Positions 893-8,696 of a DNA stretch of 64,000 nt are shown piece after piece (within the stretch, counting starts at the first letter, position 1; every line of letters starts with the position of its first letter). The stretch is from positions 62,001 through 126,000 of the forward strand of contig NZ_SLWW01000006.1 in assembly GCF_004342445.1 (NCBI RefSeq). Direction: 5' to 3'. The translations under genes were made by a program, and so were the position numbers. The notes beneath the pieces were generated by a model. That model saw only the letters and a program-made list of their open reading frames with translations, ran no database searches and was not told the origin of the DNA. The DNA comes from Rhodovulum euryhalinum. GTDB lineage: Bacteria > Pseudomonadota > Alphaproteobacteria > Rhodobacterales > Rhodobacteraceae.

Positions 893-1576
893 ATGATCGA
901 AGGACTGCGGCGGGACGGCGGGACGCGGCGGGCAGGATGGGCCGCCCTGCTGGTGGCGGCGCTGGCGGCGGGCGGCGCGTCGGCCGAGGGCTTCACCGCG
1001 CGGAGTGGCGGACCGGGCCACGCAGAGATGGTCGGGCGGAATGGACAGAGCCCGGCCGAGGGACTGGCCTTCGTCCGCCCGGTGCTGTCGGGGGTGCTGT
1101 ACCGTGCAGGCTTCAAGGGTGGCGACAAGGGCCGCACGGGACTGAACGATACCCAGCGCAAGCAGCTGTGCGCGGCCGGCTTCTCGTCGGCGCGCTACAT
1201 CGACTTCGGCAAGAACACGAAGTTCGGCGAAACCTCCTGCGGCGGCGGGCGGCTGGCCTATGCGCCGGGCAAGTCGACCCGGCCGGACGACGTGCTGAAG
1301 GAAATCCACGCCATCATCAAGGATCCGGGCCGCGGGCCGATGCTGGTGCACTGCATGTGGGGCGTACATTCCTCGGGCGCGATCTCGGCGATGGCGCTGG
1401 TGCAGTTCTGCGGCTGGAGCGAGGACCGCGCCAAGGCCTATTGGGACGAGGCGCGCAACGGTGCCGATTGTTCCGACGGCTGCGATGCCTGGATCGACCA
1501 CCATTTCGAGCATTTCTCTCCCAGCCCGGCGCTGGCCATCTCGGCGGCCGAACGCGCCGCCATCTGCCCCGACTGA
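893..1576 (+). CDS. Exported protein tyrosine phosphatase-fold protein, catalytic Arg absent
   Basis: A 227-residue protein with an N-terminal signal peptide (hydrophobic core about residues 15-30, ending ASA). The C-terminal half resembles dual-specificity/tyrosine phosphatases. Residues 153-162 read HCMWGVHSSG, matching the phosphate loop H-C-x5-R-S/T in the nucleophile Cys154 and the following Ser-Gly. The position of the essential Arg (160) is Ser, so it may bind rather than hydrolyse phosphate, or use another residue. Several further Cys (93, 116, 173, 193, 197) suit an exported, disulfide-bearing protein. Start chosen at ATG 893 after a GGGAG Shine-Dalgarno. It is the first of three closely packed genes, all for exported proteins linked to phosphate chemistry. 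Confidence 0.6.
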   Translation: MIEGLRRDGGTRRAGWAALLVAALAAGGASAEGFTARSGGPGHAEMVGRNGQSPAEGLAFVRPVLSGVLYRAGFKGGDKGRTGLNDTQRKQLCAAGFSSARYIDFGKNTKFGETSCGGGRLAYAPGKSTRPDDVLKEIHAIIKDPGRGPMLVHCMWGVHSSGAISAMALVQFCGWSEDRAKAYWDEARNGADCSDGCDAWIDHHFEHFSPSPALAISAAERAAICPD

Positions 1577-1588
1577 AAGGACCGAGCC

Positions 1589-3016
1589 TTGCGCCTGACC
1601 CTGACCGCCGCCCTGTGCCTCACCGCTTCCGCCGTCTCGGCCTCTGACGCGGTCGAGGGCACGGCCACGCGATTCACCAGCCCCAACGGCGTGACCGAGA
1701 CCTGCGTCCGCATCGCGCCGATGCCCGGCGCGGTCTATTCCGAGGCCGACCTCGCCGCCGAGGCTGCCTTCTGCGCCATCGACCTTTACGACCCGGCCGT
1801 GGGGCTCTGCCCCAAGACCTGGAGCACCAGCCCCGGGATGATCCTGCACGACCTGTCCGAAGGGCCCTATGCCGGCGACCGGCGCGGGTTCGAGGCCAAT
1901 GCCTGCCCTCAGGGCAAGGAGGCGAAGGAGGCGTCGGGCGGCGAACTGGCCAAGTTCAAGCCGACGATGAACGCCAGGGGCACCAGCGGCACCTTCTCGC
2001 CCTCGCCGCTGCTCTACTACCACCTGTCCCGCTACTTCGGCATGGACATCGGCGTGCCGGTGGCGGTCTGGCGCAGCATGGACCGGGGCGCGCACCTGTC
2101 AGAGGTCGCGCGCCCGGGCGTCGCGATCTCGGGGCACAGCCATTCGTCCGACATGAACCGCTCGGGCTGGCAGATTCTGGTCGCGGCCGACCAGGACCCC
2201 GGCACCTACAGCCCGACCGATGAACTGTTCACCGCCGACCGCAGCGCGCTTTACGGCGTGATGCTCAAGTCGAAGGGCGACCGCTACAATTCCGAGGTCA
2301 ACGGCACCCGCGCCTCGGGCTGGGGCAAGGGGCAGAACCTCGACTTCCAGAAGACGGCGCCCTTCCTCGCCCTGCGTGCCGCGGGCCCGATCGAGGCCGC
2401 GATCGCGGCGGGCGTGGCCGAGGCGGTGAAGGACCCCCAGATCGCCAGGGACATGGGGGCCGGTGTCGCCCCCGCGCAGGTCGCATACTGGATGGAGGAC
2501 CTGACCGGACTCGTGCTGCTGGACTTCATCCTCAGCCAGCAGGACCGGGTCGGCAACATCGACTTCGTTCCGGTCTGGCACTGGGTCGAGACCGGCGCGG
2601 TGCGGACCCAGGCCGCCGCCAAGCATGGCGACGACGCGCCGCCCGCACCCGGCGCGATCCGGATCAAGCGCACGCATCTGAACGACAACGACGCGGGCGC
2701 GCGGGTGGAATACGCCAACTATGCCAAGTCCACGGGCATGCTGGAGGGGCTGCGCCATTTCCCGGCCGGGACCTATTCCCGGCTGATGGCGCTCAATGAG
2801 GACCTGGCCGCCGGGGGGCCGCTGCATGCCTATCTGAAGGACAGCTTCGGACTGACCGAGGCGCAGTTCGGCCAGCTTGTGCGCAATACCGCGATGGCGG
2901 CCGATATCCTGTCGGCGGCCTGCGCCGGGGGGACGCTGGCCTTCGATCTGGAGGCCGAGGCGTTCCTGAAGGACGGCAAGGTGAGCCCGGCCGCGGTCGA
3001 CTGCGCGGGGCGGTAG
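1589..3016 (+). CDS. Predicted secreted Fam20C-like protein kinase
   Basis: A 475-residue protein with a signal peptide (residues 1-19, cut near SAS-D). I see no close named family at first sight, but landmarks in order fit atypical secretory-pathway kinases of the Fam20C/PI3K-like group. LAKFKP at 120-125 offers an ATP-binding lysine. LLYYHLSRYFG then GVPVAVWR (141-162) matches the E-x-A-A-F-x-L-dR-I-L-G...V-P-P-V-x-x-R region. LLDFILSQQDRVGN (310-323) resembles the catalytic D-R-x-x-N loop. HLNDNDAG (363-370) resembles the metal-binding L-D-N-G/DFG segment. Six Cys fit export. The start is TTG 1589 with AAAGGA seven bases upstream; no ATG is suitably placed. The gene begins 12 bases after the PTP-fold gene and ends 2 bases before the metallophosphoesterase gene. 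The kinase call is inference; a non-catalytic relative is possible. Confidence 0.5.
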   Translation: MRLTLTAALCLTASAVSASDAVEGTATRFTSPNGVTETCVRIAPMPGAVYSEADLAAEAAFCAIDLYDPAVGLCPKTWSTSPGMILHDLSEGPYAGDRRGFEANACPQGKEAKEASGGELAKFKPTMNARGTSGTFSPSPLLYYHLSRYFGMDIGVPVAVWRSMDRGAHLSEVARPGVAISGHSHSSDMNRSGWQILVAADQDPGTYSPTDELFTADRSALYGVMLKSKGDRYNSEVNGTRASGWGKGQNLDFQKTAPFLALRAAGPIEAAIAAGVAEAVKDPQIARDMGAGVAPAQVAYWMEDLTGLVLLDFILSQQDRVGNIDFVPVWHWVETGAVRTQAAAKHGDDAPPAPGAIRIKRTHLNDNDAGARVEYANYAKSTGMLEGLRHFPAGTYSRLMALNEDLAAGGPLHAYLKDSFGLTEAQFGQLVRNTAMAADILSAACAGGTLAFDLEAEAFLKDGKVSPAAVDCAGR

Positions 3017-3018
3017 GG

Positions 3019-3888
3019 ATGGACCGCCGCGGCTTCGTTGCGGGGGCGCTGGCGGCGGGCGCCTTGCCCTCGGCCGTGCATGCGGGGCATCCGCGGCGCA
3101 TCGCGTTGATCTCGGATCTGAACGGGAGCTACGGCTCGACCGGGTATGGCCGCCCCGTGCACGCGGCCATCGCCCGGATCGTGGCCGACCGTCCCGATCT
3201 GGTCATCGTCGCGGGCGACATGGTGGCCGGTCAGCGGGCGGCGCCGAAACTGACCGGGCCCGAGCTGGCCGCGATGTGGGCGGGATTCGATCTGGCCGTG
3301 GCCGCCCCCCTGCGCCGGGCGGGCATCCCGATGCTGGCGGTCGCGGGCAACCACGACGCCTCGGCCTATCCCGGATTCGAGGCCGAACGCCGGGCCTTCG
3401 CCACGGCCGCGGCGTCCTGGCAGCCGGGCCTGCCCTTCGTCGCGGATCGCGCCTGGCCGTTCCACTTCGCCGCGCGGGCGGGGGATGTGCTGGTGGTCGG
3501 GCTGGACGTGACGGTGCCCGGCCTGCCCGCGCCGCCGCAGATGACGTGGCTGCGCGACCTGCTGGCCGCGGGGCGGGGGCGCAATCGCGCGATCCTCGTG
3601 GTCGGCCACCTGCCGCTGGTGCCCGTCGCGCAGGGGCGCGAGCGCGACATCATCGGCGACGCGGCGTTCCAGCGGGTGCTGGAGACGGGGCAGGCCGCCG
3701 CCTATCTCAGCGGCCACCACCACGCCTTCGCCGCGCGGCGCATCGGCTCGGTCCTGCATGTCGCGCAGGGTGCGCTGGGAGGCGGGCCGCGCAAGCGCAT
3801 CGGCGAGACCGCCCGCGCGCCGCAATCCTTCACTTGGCTGGAGATCTCCGATTCCGGCGGGCTGACGGTTCGCGAGGTCCTGCCCTGA
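3019..3888 (+). CDS. Tat-exported calcineurin-like metallophosphoesterase
   Basis: A 289-residue protein. The N-terminus, MDRRGFVAGALAAGALPSAVHA, is a Tat-type signal (RRGF core, AHA-like cut). The metallophosphoesterase motifs follow in order: SDLN (32-35), GD (66-67), GNHD (110-113), GH (196-197) and GHHH (232-235). The first motif has Asn where the family normally has His (D-x-H), which could alter metal site 1. It probably acts on a phosphoester in the periplasm; the substrate is unknown. It starts 2 bases after the kinase-like gene and is surely in the same operon, so it may remove phosphate that the neighbour adds. Confidence 0.75.
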   Translation: MDRRGFVAGALAAGALPSAVHAGHPRRIALISDLNGSYGSTGYGRPVHAAIARIVADRPDLVIVAGDMVAGQRAAPKLTGPELAAMWAGFDLAVAAPLRRAGIPMLAVAGNHDASAYPGFEAERRAFATAAASWQPGLPFVADRAWPFHFAARAGDVLVVGLDVTVPGLPAPPQMTWLRDLLAAGRGRNRAILVVGHLPLVPVAQGRERDIIGDAAFQRVLETGQAAAYLSGHHHAFAARRIGSVLHVAQGALGGGPRKRIGETARAPQSFTWLEISDSGGLTVREVLP

Positions 3889-4718: not shown

Positions 4719-4750
4719 AGTCACATCACATTCACGCGCCTCGGGGGCTG

Positions 4751-5029
<279 letters not shown>

Positions 5030-5277
5030 GGACCGGCACAGGGTCTTGTCGGTCGCGGTTGCGCCAGCGGGCGCCACCCTGCGCGTATCAAGGGCCATGG
5101 GGGCCTTCCGTCGATCCGGATGCAGGGTGATGGTCCCTGCGGGCAACGTCGCGACCGAGGCGCGAGTTCTGCAACAGCGCCCCTGCTGGTGGTGAACCTG
5201 CTTGATCGCAGGCCCGATTCAGGCGACATTGAAACCGTCTGGCAGGCCGCTTCGGGAATGTCGGCTGAGCAGCGGTG
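5030..5277. other. Leader region of the lipid-glycan operon
   Basis: About 250 bases without a supported gene. It should hold the promoter of the following four-gene operon, but I cannot point to clear -35/-10 boxes. Its left border lies in the suspect homopolymer region, so its true extent is uncertain. Confidence 0.4.
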
Positions 5278-6084
5278 ATGATCTCTATAGTAATACCTGC
5301 CCACGACGAGGCCGAAAACGTCGAGTCGCTGATCCGCGAGATCCATGCGGCTTGCGCGGACTTGCCGTGCAAGGAGGTCATTGTCGTCGATGACGGGTCG
5401 CGCGATGGCACGGGCGATATCGTGCAGGGGCTGCGGTCCGAGTTTCCCTGGCTTCGTCTCGTCCGTCACGACCGGGCGGGCGGCCAGTCCGCCGCGGTTC
5501 ACAGTGGGGTCGCGGCCGCAAAGGGCGAGATCATCTGCACACTTGACGGTGATCTCCAGAACCCGCCCGCAGAGATTCCGCGCCTGGTCGCGCCGTTCCT
5601 GAAGGGCGATGCCGACCCGGCGCTGGGACTTGTTGCGGGACAGCGGGTCAAACGGCATGATACCTGGTCGAAGCGCGCCGCCTCGCGCTTTGCCAACGGG
5701 CTTCGTGGCTGGGTGCTGTCGGACAATACGCGCGACACCGGATGCGGGCTCAAGGCGTTCCGCCGGGACGCCTTTCTCGCGCTGCCGTTCTTCAATCACA
5801 TGCACCGATACTTGCCGGCGCTTTTTTCCGCGCATGGCTGGACGATTGCGCATGTCGACGTCTCCCACCGCGCCCGCGTCGCTGGCCGGTCGAAATACAG
5901 CAACCTGCAACGGGGACTGGTCGGGGCTTATGACCTTGTCGGGGTGGGCTGGCTGCTCCGCCGTAGGAAATCCGTGCGGCCAACGGAAGTCGCGCCGAAC
6001 GGGCAGATTGTCATGCAAAAGGAAGCAAGGATGGACGCGCAGCCGGCCGTTCCGCGCAGAACCGAAAAGGAGAGCGCAGCGTGA
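5278..6084 (+). CDS. GT2 polyprenyl-phosphate sugar transferase (DPM1-like)
   Basis: A 268-residue family 2 glycosyltransferase of the dolichyl/undecaprenyl-phosphate mannosyltransferase type. It moves a sugar from a nucleotide donor to a polyprenyl phosphate on the cytoplasmic face. The N-terminus ISIVIPAHDEAENV, the DDGS motif (38-41) and DGDLQNPP (about 93-100) are typical of this GT-A fold. It has no C-terminal membrane helices, unlike ArnC or GtrB. Start ATG 5278 (a GTG lies directly before it at 5275); the ribosome-binding site is weak. The stop overlaps the next start. With the LABN and GT39-like neighbours it resembles the donor-lipid module used for lipid A or LPS sugars, for example RgtE-type systems. 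Confidence 0.8.
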   Translation: MISIVIPAHDEAENVESLIREIHAACADLPCKEVIVVDDGSRDGTGDIVQGLRSEFPWLRLVRHDRAGGQSAAVHSGVAAAKGEIICTLDGDLQNPPAEIPRLVAPFLKGDADPALGLVAGQRVKRHDTWSKRAASRFANGLRGWVLSDNTRDTGCGLKAFRRDAFLALPFFNHMHRYLPALFSAHGWTIAHVDVSHRARVAGRSKYSNLQRGLVGAYDLVGVGWLLRRRKSVRPTEVAPNGQIVMQKEARMDAQPAVPRRTEKESAA

Positions 6085-6398
6085 TCGAAGCGGCTCTCCA
6101 GTTCTTCGGGGTTGATACCCGTGCCGAACTTGTCTGGATCATGGTCGGCCTCGGGGCGCAGACCTTGTTCTCGATGCGGTTCATCGTGCAGTGGATCGCT
6201 TCGGAGCGGCAGAGCCGGTCTGTGGTGCCCGAGCTTTTCTGGTGGTTCTCGATCTTCGGGGGGATCACGCTGCTGGCCTATGCGATCCATCGCAAGGATC
6301 CTGTCTTCATTCTCGGCCAGGCGCTTGGGGTGATCATCTACACACGCAACCTCTGGCTGATCCATGCAGAAAAGCGTAGCCTCCGGCTGGAAACCTGA
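6081..6398 (+). CDS. Lipid-A-disaccharide synthase N-terminal-like (LABN) membrane protein
   Basis: A 105-residue small membrane protein with about three hydrophobic segments. The signature segments Q-T-L-F-S-M-R-F-I-V-Q-W, S-V-V-P-E-L-F-W-W-F-S and DPVFILGQALG are those of the LABN domain. This domain occurs alone next to GT2/GT39 pairs or fused to LpxB. It may help flip or position polyprenyl-linked sugars; the biochemical role is not settled. GTG start 6081 overlaps the previous stop (GTGA), and its 3' end overlaps the following gene by 35 bases, showing tight translational coupling. Confidence 0.8.
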   Translation: MIEAALQFFGVDTRAELVWIMVGLGAQTLFSMRFIVQWIASERQSRSVVPELFWWFSIFGGITLLAYAIHRKDPVFILGQALGVIIYTRNLWLIHAEKRSLRLET

Positions 6399-7836
6399 GC
6401 CGCTCGTCCTTGGACTTGCCGCGGTCGCCTTCATCACGATTTACAGGCTTGTCTTGCTGCCCCTGGCAACGACAGACCTTTTCGTGGACGAGGCGCAGTA
6501 CTGGCAGTGGGGGCAAGAGCTTGATTGGGGCTATTACTCGAAGCCGCCGCTGATCGGCTGGGTGCTGCGCGCTGTGACCGACCTTGCGGGCAGCGACGGC
6601 CCGTTCTGGGTGCGGCTTCCCGGCGCGATCTTCCATGCGGCTGCAGCGGTCCTGATCATCGGGGTCGCACGGCGCTATGCCGATCCGGTCTCTGCCGCGT
6701 TCTGCGGGATCGCCTATCTTACCATGCCTGCGATCGGGGTCGGGTCGCTGTTGATCTCGACCGACACGATCCTGCTGCCGTTCTGGGCGGCCTCGGTCTG
6801 GTTATACTTGCGGCTGACCGATGGCCGCTCGGCGTTGGCCGCCGCCCTGCTGGGCCTGTGCCTGGGACTCGGGTTCCTGGGAAAATACGCCGCGATCTAC
6901 TTTCCGCTCTGCGCCGCGCTGGGCGCGCTCTTCATCCCGGCGTCGCGGATCGCGGCGCGCGATGCCGCGATCGCGGCCGCGGTCTTCGCGGCCGTGGCCG
7001 CGCCCAACATCGTCTGGAACCTGCAGAACGACCTGATCACCGTGGCGCATACCGCCGACAATGTCGGTTGGATCAAGAAGCCGGGCCTTGCGCTGAATGA
7101 CAGCGGGATGCTGCACTTCTTCGGGTCGCAGTTCATGGTCATGGGGCCTCTTCTGTTCGCGTCCTTTCTGCTGGCGGGCGTCTGGACAGTCGCCCGGGGC
7201 GACTGGCAGGCGCGCTGGCTGGTGTGGATGTCCGCGCCGATCCTAGCGATCGTGACGACGCAGGCGCTTTTGTCGAAAGCCTATGCAAACTGGGCCGTCA
7301 CGGCCTATGTCGCCGCGATCCTGCTGACCGTGCCGTGGCTCTGGCGCCGGTCGCGGCGACTCCTCTGGGCGGCCTTGGGGGTCAACCTCGTGCTTGCGCT
7401 GGCGCTGCCGGTGGCGGTCACCCAGGCCACCCGGTGGCGCGTCGGGGGCGATCTGGTCTTCGAGCGCTATACCGGCCGGGCAGAGCTGAGCGAGCATGTG
7501 CTTTCCGCGGCAGCCGCGGCCGGCCTGACCGACATCGTCGCAGTCGAGCGGCAGGTCCTTGCCGATCTCTTCTACACCGCGCGCGACCGCGACGTGACGA
7601 TCTTCAGCCTGCCTCCTGCGGGGCGGCCGAAGAATTTCTACGCGCAGCAGCACCCTTATCCCACAGGCCGCAGCACGCCTTCCCTTTTCGTGCGAATGGA
7701 CGGCGGTGTGCTGCCCTGCGCTGATGCGGCCGAGGAACTTGGCCGCTGGACGCCGGGGCCCGGTGCCTATGACGGGCGGATGGTGCGCGTCTACCGCTTG
7801 CCGCCAAGTTGCCTTGCCGCAGGGGGCGGGGCATGA
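6364..7836 (+). CDS. ArnT-like GT39/GT83 glycosyltransferase
   Basis: A 490-residue multi-pass integral membrane enzyme. The first periplasmic loop carries FVDEAQYWQWGQ (about 39-50), with the catalytic acidic pair, then YYSKPPLIGWVLR, the hallmark of ArnT/PMT-type transferases that take a sugar from a polyprenyl phosphate. Roughly ten to twelve hydrophobic segments follow, then a soluble periplasmic tail. Likely acceptors are lipid A, LPS core or a related surface lipid. The donor lipid is presumably made by the GT2 enzyme two genes upstream. The stop overlaps the next start (ATGA). Confidence 0.8.
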   Translation: MQKSVASGWKPEPLVLGLAAVAFITIYRLVLLPLATTDLFVDEAQYWQWGQELDWGYYSKPPLIGWVLRAVTDLAGSDGPFWVRLPGAIFHAAAAVLIIGVARRYADPVSAAFCGIAYLTMPAIGVGSLLISTDTILLPFWAASVWLYLRLTDGRSALAAALLGLCLGLGFLGKYAAIYFPLCAALGALFIPASRIAARDAAIAAAVFAAVAAPNIVWNLQNDLITVAHTADNVGWIKKPGLALNDSGMLHFFGSQFMVMGPLLFASFLLAGVWTVARGDWQARWLVWMSAPILAIVTTQALLSKAYANWAVTAYVAAILLTVPWLWRRSRRLLWAALGVNLVLALALPVAVTQATRWRVGGDLVFERYTGRAELSEHVLSAAAAAGLTDIVAVERQVLADLFYTARDRDVTIFSLPPAGRPKNFYAQQHPYPTGRSTPSLFVRMDGGVLPCADAAEELGRWTPGPGAYDGRMVRVYRLPPSCLAAGGGA

Positions 7837-8696
7837 GCGTCGGGCGCGTTTTCCTTGTCGTCTGGCTGGCGGCCAGCCTTGTCTTCGCGGTCCTGCCGGG
7901 AATCGACCTTGCGGTGGCGCGAGTCTTTTTCGTCGAGGGCGAAGGCTTCGTTCTGGGCGACGTGCGCCAATTGCAACTGATCCGCGAAGGGTTGTGGAAC
8001 CTGGCCAACCTCGTGGGCTTCGTTGCCCTGGCCTTCGGGATCCATGCCTTGTTGTCCCGGCGGACATGCCGGGTTCCGGGGCGCGTGTGGGGATATGCGG
8101 TCACGCTGATCCTTGTCGTGCCGATCGGGATCGTGAACGGGATCCTGAAGGAATTCTGGGGTCGCGCCCGTCCCGACGATGTGACCGAGTTCGGCGGCCC
8201 GCTGGCCTTCACCCCGCCATGGGAAATTGCCGGTCAGTGTGCCAGGAACTGCTCTTTCGTCTCGGGAGAGGCGGCGTCCGCTGCGACGATGGCCATCCTG
8301 ATCGGCCTGTTCGCCTGGAACGCGGTGCCCGGCGGGCGGCGCCCGTATCTGGTTGCCGTCCTCGTCGCCATTGCCCTGGGCGCGGGGATGCTGCGGGTCT
8401 CGTTCGGGCGTCATTTCCTGTCGGACGTGCTGTGGGCCGACATCATCGTCCTGACGATGGCCTGGGCGCTTGCCCGGGCGTTCCGGCTGCGCGATGTCAT
8501 CGATCGCATCACCTTCGGTGCCGTGGCGGCGGATGCACGGACGGCGGCGCATGATCTGGCGGCGGTTGCCCGCGCGTTTTCCCACTTTGCCAGGGCGCTT
8601 GCCCGCGAGCTACGCGCGGGGTCTGGCGGACGCGCCCCCAAGGTAGCGGATGCGCCCGAAAGCCGGGATGTCGACGCGACACCGCGCAAGACATAG
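7833..8696 (+). CDS. PAP2-family membrane phosphatase
   Basis: A 287-residue PAP2-superfamily enzyme with five to six membrane helices. The three motifs are present: K-x5-RARP in KEFWGRARPDD, SGEAAS in place of the usual PSGH, and SFGRHFLSDVLWAD (SR-x5-H-x3-D type). The loss of the central His of PSGH (here Glu) recurs in some lipid A phosphatases and is worth noting. The extra C-terminal 60 residues are charged and Ala/Arg-rich. Start ATG 7833 overlaps the upstream stop. It probably removes phosphate from lipid A, or recycles the polyprenyl phosphate used by the upstream enzymes. Confidence 0.75.
   Translation: MSVGRVFLVVWLAASLVFAVLPGIDLAVARVFFVEGEGFVLGDVRQLQLIREGLWNLANLVGFVALAFGIHALLSRRTCRVPGRVWGYAVTLILVVPIGIVNGILKEFWGRARPDDVTEFGGPLAFTPPWEIAGQCARNCSFVSGEAASAATMAILIGLFAWNAVPGGRRPYLVAVLVAIALGAGMLRVSFGRHFLSDVLWADIIVLTMAWALARAFRLRDVIDRITFGAVAADARTAAHDLAAVARAFSHFARALARELRAGSGGRAPKVADAPESRDVDATPRKT

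Follow-up and report, generated by a model that had tools for sequence, protein, structure and literature searches.

A patchily distributed three-gene cassette of Rhodovulum euryhalinum and its relatives encodes a predicted Fam20-fold kinase-like protein with two phosphatase-like partners

The window analysed here, a 64,000-nucleotide stretch of the Rhodovulum euryhalinum assembly GCF_004342445.1 (contig NZ_SLWW01000006.1, positions 62,001 to 126,000 of the forward strand), carries a cassette of three genes, here called g1, g2 and g3, all encoded on the forward strand; window positions are counted from its first nucleotide. The g1 gene (893..1576) encodes a protein of 227 amino acids that, from its predicted fold and alignments, belongs to the protein tyrosine phosphatase and dual-specificity phosphatase (PTP/DUSP) fold, with a conserved Cys154 and without the catalytic Arg. 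The g2 gene (1589..3016), which starts with TTG, encodes a kinase-like protein of 475 amino acids placed in the Fam20 fold by the same two kinds of evidence, and g3 (3019..3888) encodes a calcineurin-like metallophosphoesterase of 289 amino acids with a twin-Arg N-terminus, identified by the Pfam model Metallophos. The gaps between the genes are 12 bases (g1-g2) and 2 bases (g2-g3), so that the open reading frame (ORF) coordinates bear out the layout described in the original prediction, which had been made from this DNA without database searches. The same prediction held that all three proteins carry signal peptides, and hydrophobic N-termini with A-x-A-type ends can indeed be recognized by eye on each of them, which suggests export. 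The antisense ORFs that overlap positions 893-3888 are probably artefacts of GC-rich sequence.

The arrangement was compared at 28 distinct g2 loci, comprising 17 loci from a contig scan, the window, L028 (genome G010) and nine further genomes obtained in the phylum and family searches described below. The contig-scan loci consist of 16 records whose titles name Rhodobacterales-type organisms or metagenome-assembled genomes (MAGs), two of them from one MAG, and L015, titled as an Aquificaceae MAG; the closest pair among the 28 loci shares 90% identity in g2. All three genes are adjacent and in order at 23 of the 28 loci, and the set is therefore far from a chance assembly. The trio is spaced tightly, and g2 and g3 often overlap. 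The remaining five loci are L005 (where the contig ends after g2), L015 (g2 alone), L026 in genome G515 (g1-g2), L066 (g2-g3) and L067 (g2 alone). The g1 gene is present at 25 loci, and g3 likewise at 25 by count, of which 24 are true, because the match in L015 is a different phosphoesterase located two genes away. One of the 23 trio loci, L003, has a stop codon inside the g2 frame, and its g2 was left out of alignments A3, A4 and A7; L059-L064 and L066/L067 (labelled L047/L048 there) were included only in alignment A7. Across the 23 loci, the pairwise distances of the genes are correlated (Mantel r of 0.75 for g1-g2, 0.53 for g1-g3 and 0.76 for g2-g3, each reached by 0 of 999 permutations, uncorrected for species phylogeny), which fits co-inheritance. 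The linkage between g1 and g2 is kept even in G515, at identities of 34% and 28%.

Among genomes, g2 was found in 18 of the 394 genomes of the family sample (17 intact genes and a remnant in G028), and in 4 of the 61 genomes of a search among relatives (one a remnant); of the 16 genomes there that belong to the same genus as the window, two carry it, the window's own among them. In the class sample, 1 of 385 genomes carried it, namely the window's own, and in the phylum sample 2 of 398, the window's own and G515, an alphaproteobacterial genome of 7.5 Mb; a search among 100 relatives of G515 returned G515 itself alone. Matches to g1 occurred in 17 of the 394 family genomes, and the 15 of full length all fall within the 17 genomes that hold an intact g2; two of these, G947 and G1019, have an intact g2 without g1. 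Two g1 matches were rejected, that in G830 because it is an ordinary PTP whose HCHHGADRTG loop is intact and that in G1110 because it is a broken fragment. In G028, broken pieces of g2 and g3 lie near ORFs that resemble transposases by eye. With its patchy presence and its broken pieces, the trio therefore reads as an accessory unit that has been gained and lost, and it is a real, conserved and patchily distributed module. No g2 match was obtained by tblastn in the PLSDB plasmids or by a pattern scan of viral contigs with the g2 alignment (a phage collection was not searched).

Two odd copies of g2 were also observed. The window's own genome (G000) holds a partial second g2 with an in-frame stop (L030:7320-7643), which is 86% identical over 108 residues; contig C29, on which it lies, ends 90 bases away. 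The g2 relative of L015 (L015:5980-7347) is 45% identical, and the Aquificaceae label of its MAG may reflect a binning error. A phosphoesterase-like ORF two genes upstream of it was rejected as g3 for want of the SD-x-N-G motif; this ORF adjoins genes that resemble those of glycerol metabolism by eye.

The original prediction described g2 as a Fam20C-like kinase, and this call is supported at the level of fold and motif. An AlphaFold2 model built from 19 aligned sequences (predicted local distance difference test, pLDDT, 86.4; predicted template modelling score, pTM, 0.87) has a kinase fold, to which Fam20 chains are the closest. In the VIA comparison, hydra Fam20 scored a Z of 16.8 (root-mean-square deviation 4.3, 288 aligned), followed by DrFam20C1 (15.7), human Fam20C (14.7), ceFam20 (14.1) and Fam20A (12.5), whereas the best chain outside Fam20, CtkA, reached 10.5, ahead of HipT (10.1), actin-fragmin kinase (9.4), HipA (8.9) and PI3K (about 7). 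Because of this margin, the model strongly indicates Fam20 as the best fold neighbour of g2 among the chains compared, and the HipA/CtkA/PI3K kinases (Z about 7-10.5) as related but clearly weaker matches; families missing from the VIA lists are not thereby excluded, and the lack of CotH chains among the 50 VIA entries shown excludes nothing. A Foldseek search of the PDB gave nothing under an E-value of 0.001; its best four rows were all DrFam20C1 (E 1.6e-3 to 3.5e-3, probability 1.00), and the remaining rows shown had probabilities of at most 0.08.

By sequence profiles, on the other hand, the Fam20C match implied by the original prediction was not borne out. The g2 protein matched no Pfam or NCBIfam family, and with the HMMER filters on, neither Fam20C (PF06702) or other kinase models nor CotH matched any of the 19 g2 members at E <=10. 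A separate Pfam search for Fam20C gave 0 of 21 relatives, which is no evidence of absence because the controls gave 0 of 14 as well. Weak Pfam matches of single members (CopK, DprA_WH, CCDC144C and DUF2857) were taken as chance, as were the phosphorylase kinase matches of the g2 profile in the PDB (E 0.4-1.2). A reading as a HipA-like toxin was dropped because the N-termini are of the export type and the fold match is weaker. The best reading is that g2 is a member of a new Fam20-like family.

The motifs quoted in the original prediction are found at the residues named there. AKFK (residues 121-124; 1949..1960) lies within a beta strand, modelled at residues 119-125, that holds Lys124; the catalytic-loop segment DRVGN (residues 319-323; 2543..2557) follows a helix at 295-315; and the putative metal-binding segment NDND (residues 365-368; 2681..2692) may be compared with HLDNG in Fam20C. 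Lys124, Asp319, Arg320, Asn323, Asp366, Asn367 and Asp368 are invariant in all 27 aligned g2 sequences, as are Lys76, Asp54, Asp65, Arg148, Asp165 and Asp312. Thus Asp319, Asn323, Asp366 and Asp368 behave as predicted, while of the two lysines put forward, Lys124 is kept in 27/27 and Lys122 in 25/27, with Arg in L047 and L048; Lys124 is for this reason the better candidate for the ATP lysine. It stands within F-K-P, as in the FKPM of Fam20C. Further likenesses to Fam20C were seen by eye: YYHLSRYF...VPVAVWR resembles AAFHLDRIL...VPPVAGR (H-L-x-R-x-L...V-P), LLDFILSQQDR with its D-R loop resembles IFDFLMGNMDR, HLNDND (H-L-x-N) resembles HLDNG, and TYSRL resembles the helix TYLRL (T-Y-x-R-L). The equivalence of Lys124 and Asp366 to the Fam20 ATP lysine (Lys271) and metal Asp (Asp478) is likewise based on a by-eye alignment. 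The metal segment, with a pLDDT of about 71 at residues 361-370, adjoins the least certain part of the modelled core, residues 369-375, where the pLDDT is below 50. Four cysteines (Cys74, Cys106, Cys445 and Cys472) are invariant, which would fit an oxidizing compartment and, with the apparent export, is another trait shared with Fam20. Both Cys39 and Cys62 are lost together in L015, which suggests that they form a pair; L004 has lost Cys39 alone.

The fold part of the claim that g1 is a PTP phosphatase stood, whereas the phosphatase part is doubtful. Pfam gave only a sub-threshold match to Y_phosphatase (E 0.084). The AlphaFold2 model (pLDDT 79.9, pTM 0.75) is closest in VIA to DUSP23 (Z 14.2), AtPFA-DSP1 (13.5), Siw14 (13.2) and TpbA (12.2), and the first Foldseek rows are TpbA and human DUSPs. 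In the window, the P-loop reads HCMWGVHSSG (residues 153-162; 1349..1378), and the pattern H-C-x2-G-x-H-[S/A]-S-G replaces C-x5-R in 25 of 25 loci and in 19 of 19 aligned rows. The Cys is kept throughout, and the position of the CX5R Arg is Ser in 18 loci and Ala in 7, so that g1 is unlikely, from its alignments, to be an ordinary phosphatase. Like TpbA and other DUSP/PTP phosphatases, g1 has the DUSP fold, apparent export and a Cys in a V-H-C loop, but it differs by this Ser or Ala. TpbA is a periplasmic tyrosine phosphatase whose likely target is TpbB, and the passages concerned name no kinase for that target (PMC2691606). Five Cys (93, 116, 154, 173 and 225) are common to all 19 aligned g1 rows that cover them (L001 ends before 225), so that two disulfides could form and leave Cys154 free.

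For g3, the phosphoesterase identity stood (Metallophos, PF00149; E 7.1e-14, 53.1 bits against a cut-off of 21.5); g3 alone of the three had weak NCBIfam matches, and its profile matches purple acid phosphatases (E 1.7e-9). The usual metal motifs of calcineurin-like phosphoesterases are D-x-H, GD, GNH, H and GHxH. In g3, they are all kept in 17 of 17 sequences except for the first His: the first motif, D33-x-N35 (3115..3123), is D-x-N in all 24 loci with a true g3. The nine residues checked (D33, N35, D67, N111, H112, H197, H233, H234 and H235) are invariant in 17/17. Purple acid phosphatases carry a GDxxY tyrosine motif, and g3 differs from them in that this tyrosine is not seen. The claim of Tat (twin-arginine translocation) export fits the g3 of the window, where the twin-Arg motif MDRRGFVAG is present, but Tat export is not a family trait, since a loose pattern finds Tat-like N-termini in 6 of 17 g3 sequences, and two of the six start at residue 1. 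None of the other 16 sequences is as short as the g3 of the window.

Neighbouring genes, taken from home-made gene calls and grouped by single linkage with no further alignment, offer hints at the substrate. A cluster of small membrane proteins lies near the trio at 15 of 28 loci, and two scanned members gave matches below the Pfam cut-off (L063 to DUF4956, E 9.4e-6; L059 to DUF456, E 0.0075). An SdiA-regulated/phytase-like propeller cluster occurs at 10 of 28 loci, directly upstream of g1 in several. Upstream of g2 in L066 (3117-9180) lie a DUF3131 protein and a fusion of GT2 with a polysaccharide deacetylase, both identified by a Pfam search that covered L066 alone, and L067 (11647-17573) has homologs of both in the same clusters; the pair apparently constitutes an exopolysaccharide synthesis unit. 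This exopolysaccharide context, and the DUF4956-type neighbour at some loci, recall the CotH kinases, from which g2 differs in its lack of a Pfam CotH match and in its partners. Gram-positive Pel loci carry cotH, polyphosphate polymerase and DUF4956 genes, according to the relevant passages of one report (PMC7112168), and those of another report less aggregation and altered Pel levels on mutation of SIR_1594, which is CotH-like, and of the transmembrane protein SIR_1592 (PMC12345266). No polyphosphate polymerase was noted among the scanned neighbours, for which no systematic search was made. Taken together, the neighbours favour an envelope or exopolysaccharide substrate.

Several further observations concern the surroundings of the cassette. 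In the window, at 4743-5029, two 97-base direct repeats that are 84% identical flank a poly-G tract (4839-4921), and a poly-C tract of 17 bases follows at 5013-5029; this region is likely hard to assemble or artefactual. Downstream beyond the poly-G tract, genes for GT2, LAB_N, a PMT_2 glycosyltransferase and a PAP2 phosphatase stand in a row (5275-8696), probably a cluster for the modification of lipid A or a lipid-linked sugar. In G515, a second exported kinase-like ORF, P0001 (L026:5176-6339), adjoins g1-g2. Its stretches IEIAAFNLSAILGY, DRYSGGN and DNGGA are Fam20-like by eye and, again by eye, it has in EIAAF the acid missing from g2. P0001 gave no Pfam match, no PDB match by sequence and nothing useful in viral contigs, and within the search of 100 genomes it occurred in G515 alone. 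Also beside g1-g2 in G515 is a histidine-phosphatase match, a weak one at E 2.4e-4 (21.3 bits against a cut-off of 21.7).

Bacterial relatives of the Fam20-type fold are already known, since four Legionella kinase families have been grouped with FAM20/CotH; in its pertinent passages, that study describes the FAM20 cluster, for the sample it covered, as specific to eukaryotes or to Metazoa (PMC9758233). A word search of two further papers (PMC5865150 and PMC7948968) returned no passage on bacterial Fam20 proteins, and no description of this operon was recognized in the literature searched, which misses most subscription papers. From the Fam20 proteins of the metazoan secretory pathway (Fam20A, Fam20B and Fam20C), g2 differs in its lack of a Pfam or significant profile match and, by sequence, of the N-lobe acids, in DRVGN in place of DRHHYE, and in its bacterial operon with phosphatase-like partners.

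A reading of the operon as an extracytoplasmic phosphorylation module, in which the Fam20-fold kinase g2 acts with g1 and g3 on an envelope or exopolysaccharide target, stands at about even chances. It draws on the predicted fold of g2, its invariant kinase-order residues and cysteines, the recurrence and correlated distances of the trio, the confinement of full-length g1 to family genomes with an intact g2, and the envelope-type neighbours of some loci; export, activity, substrate, phosphate donor and the roles of g1 and g3 are inferred from these. In such a module, g2 would be an exported, disulfide-bearing phosphotransferase that binds a nucleotide-metal complex via Lys124 and Asp366/Asp368, with Asp319 as the catalytic base; for this candidate, kinase activity is likely. 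The phosphorylated component of the envelope or exopolysaccharide might be a glycan, comparable to the xylose on which Fam20B acts, or a surface protein. Exported g3 would take the phosphate off or recycle a by-product, and g1, as a PTP-fold protein without the catalytic Arg, would more likely serve in substrate recognition or as a scaffold than as an ordinary phosphatase. A joint cycle of phosphorylation and dephosphorylation is plausible. It is tempting to speculate further that g2 works without the N-lobe acids on a donor that is perhaps not periplasmic ATP, while the Arg-less g1 reads the mark and g3 erases it, although this elaborated version is rather unlikely.

A number of observations weigh against the phosphorylation module. 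The periplasm is not expected to contain ATP. The envelope-type neighbours vary by locus, and none is common to all loci; g1 is missing from L066 and L067, and g3 from L067 and L026. The g2 of L015 has neither g1 nor a true g3 and apparently no signal peptide, none being visible in an ORF that begins right after in-frame stops; a stand-alone, probably cytoplasmic version of g2 may therefore exist. Homology to Fam20 is not significant by sequence: hhalign matches of g2 to Fam20 fragments have E-values of 0.03-0.12, the C-lobe match spans 17 columns and scores 18.8, where 100 column shuffles reached 18.6 at best, and the N-lobe matches are off the register paired by eye. The strangest feature, as far as the alignments tell, is that all three proteins depart from their canonical active sites. 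In an alignment by eye, Thr135 of g2 lies opposite the Fam20 N-lobe acid (Thr in 25, Ser in 1 and Ala in 1 of 27 sequences), and position 140, which is never acidic (Pro 15, Ser 8, Ala 3 and Ile 1), lies opposite the ion-pair Glu. The N-lobe acid, Glu306 of Fam20C (Glu213/Asp152 equivalents), is described as essential in passages of one paper (PMC5865150), and is Gln in the pseudokinase Fam20A in passages of two (PMC5865150 and PMC5413348). Accordingly, g2 could itself be a pseudokinase or perform other chemistry (AMPylation, glutamylation or binding) in an operon that forms a binding or sensing complex: both N-lobe acids are lost by sequence, g1 has lost its Arg in 25/25 loci, g3 has D-x-N in 24/24, and Fam20A, by the same passages, is a pseudokinase partly for want of the acid. 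This explanation is nevertheless unlikely, because a pure binder would not need Lys124, Asp319, Asn323, Asp366 and Asp368, which stay invariant down to 28% identity, and the eight remaining g3 positions that were checked are conserved in 17/17.

Other explanations place the cassette in a different physiology. The genes might scavenge phosphate from extracellular esters such as phytate-like compounds or sugar phosphates, with g3 freeing phosphate and g2 acting as a kinase of small molecules or sugars; the phytase-like propeller near the cassette at 10 of 28 loci agrees with this, as do the g1 fold neighbours Siw14, an inositol pyrophosphate phosphatase, and AtPFA-DSP1. However, the kinase would have no clear role, the propeller does not adjoin the cassette in the window, and no phosphate transporter or Pho gene was noted beside the cassette (no systematic search was made), which leaves this idea improbable. 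A secreted weapon, or a defence or detoxification module acting outside the cell on a protein or compound of foreign origin, would account for the accessory character suggested by patchiness (18/394 family genomes) and broken remnants, and antibiotic phosphotransferases with kinase folds are known. This is quite improbable, however: PADLOC gave no match for the three proteins, the plasmid and viral searches described above found no g2, and no toxin-immunity-like pair was recognized, again without a systematic search. That the three genes are co-located leftovers without a joint function is very improbable, given the ordered trio at 23/28 loci and the link between g1 and g2 in the divergent G515, even though g1 or g3 is missing at four loci beyond contig-end cases (L015, L026, L066 and L067).

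How bacteria reversibly phosphorylate targets outside their cytoplasm is poorly understood. The trio hints at phosphate tagging beyond this compartment, and the g2 family, in which a predicted fold of animal secretory kinases is combined with two phosphatase-like partners, would provide a direct test system for extracytoplasmic phosphorylation and is relevant to the question of how the Fam20 fold arose.

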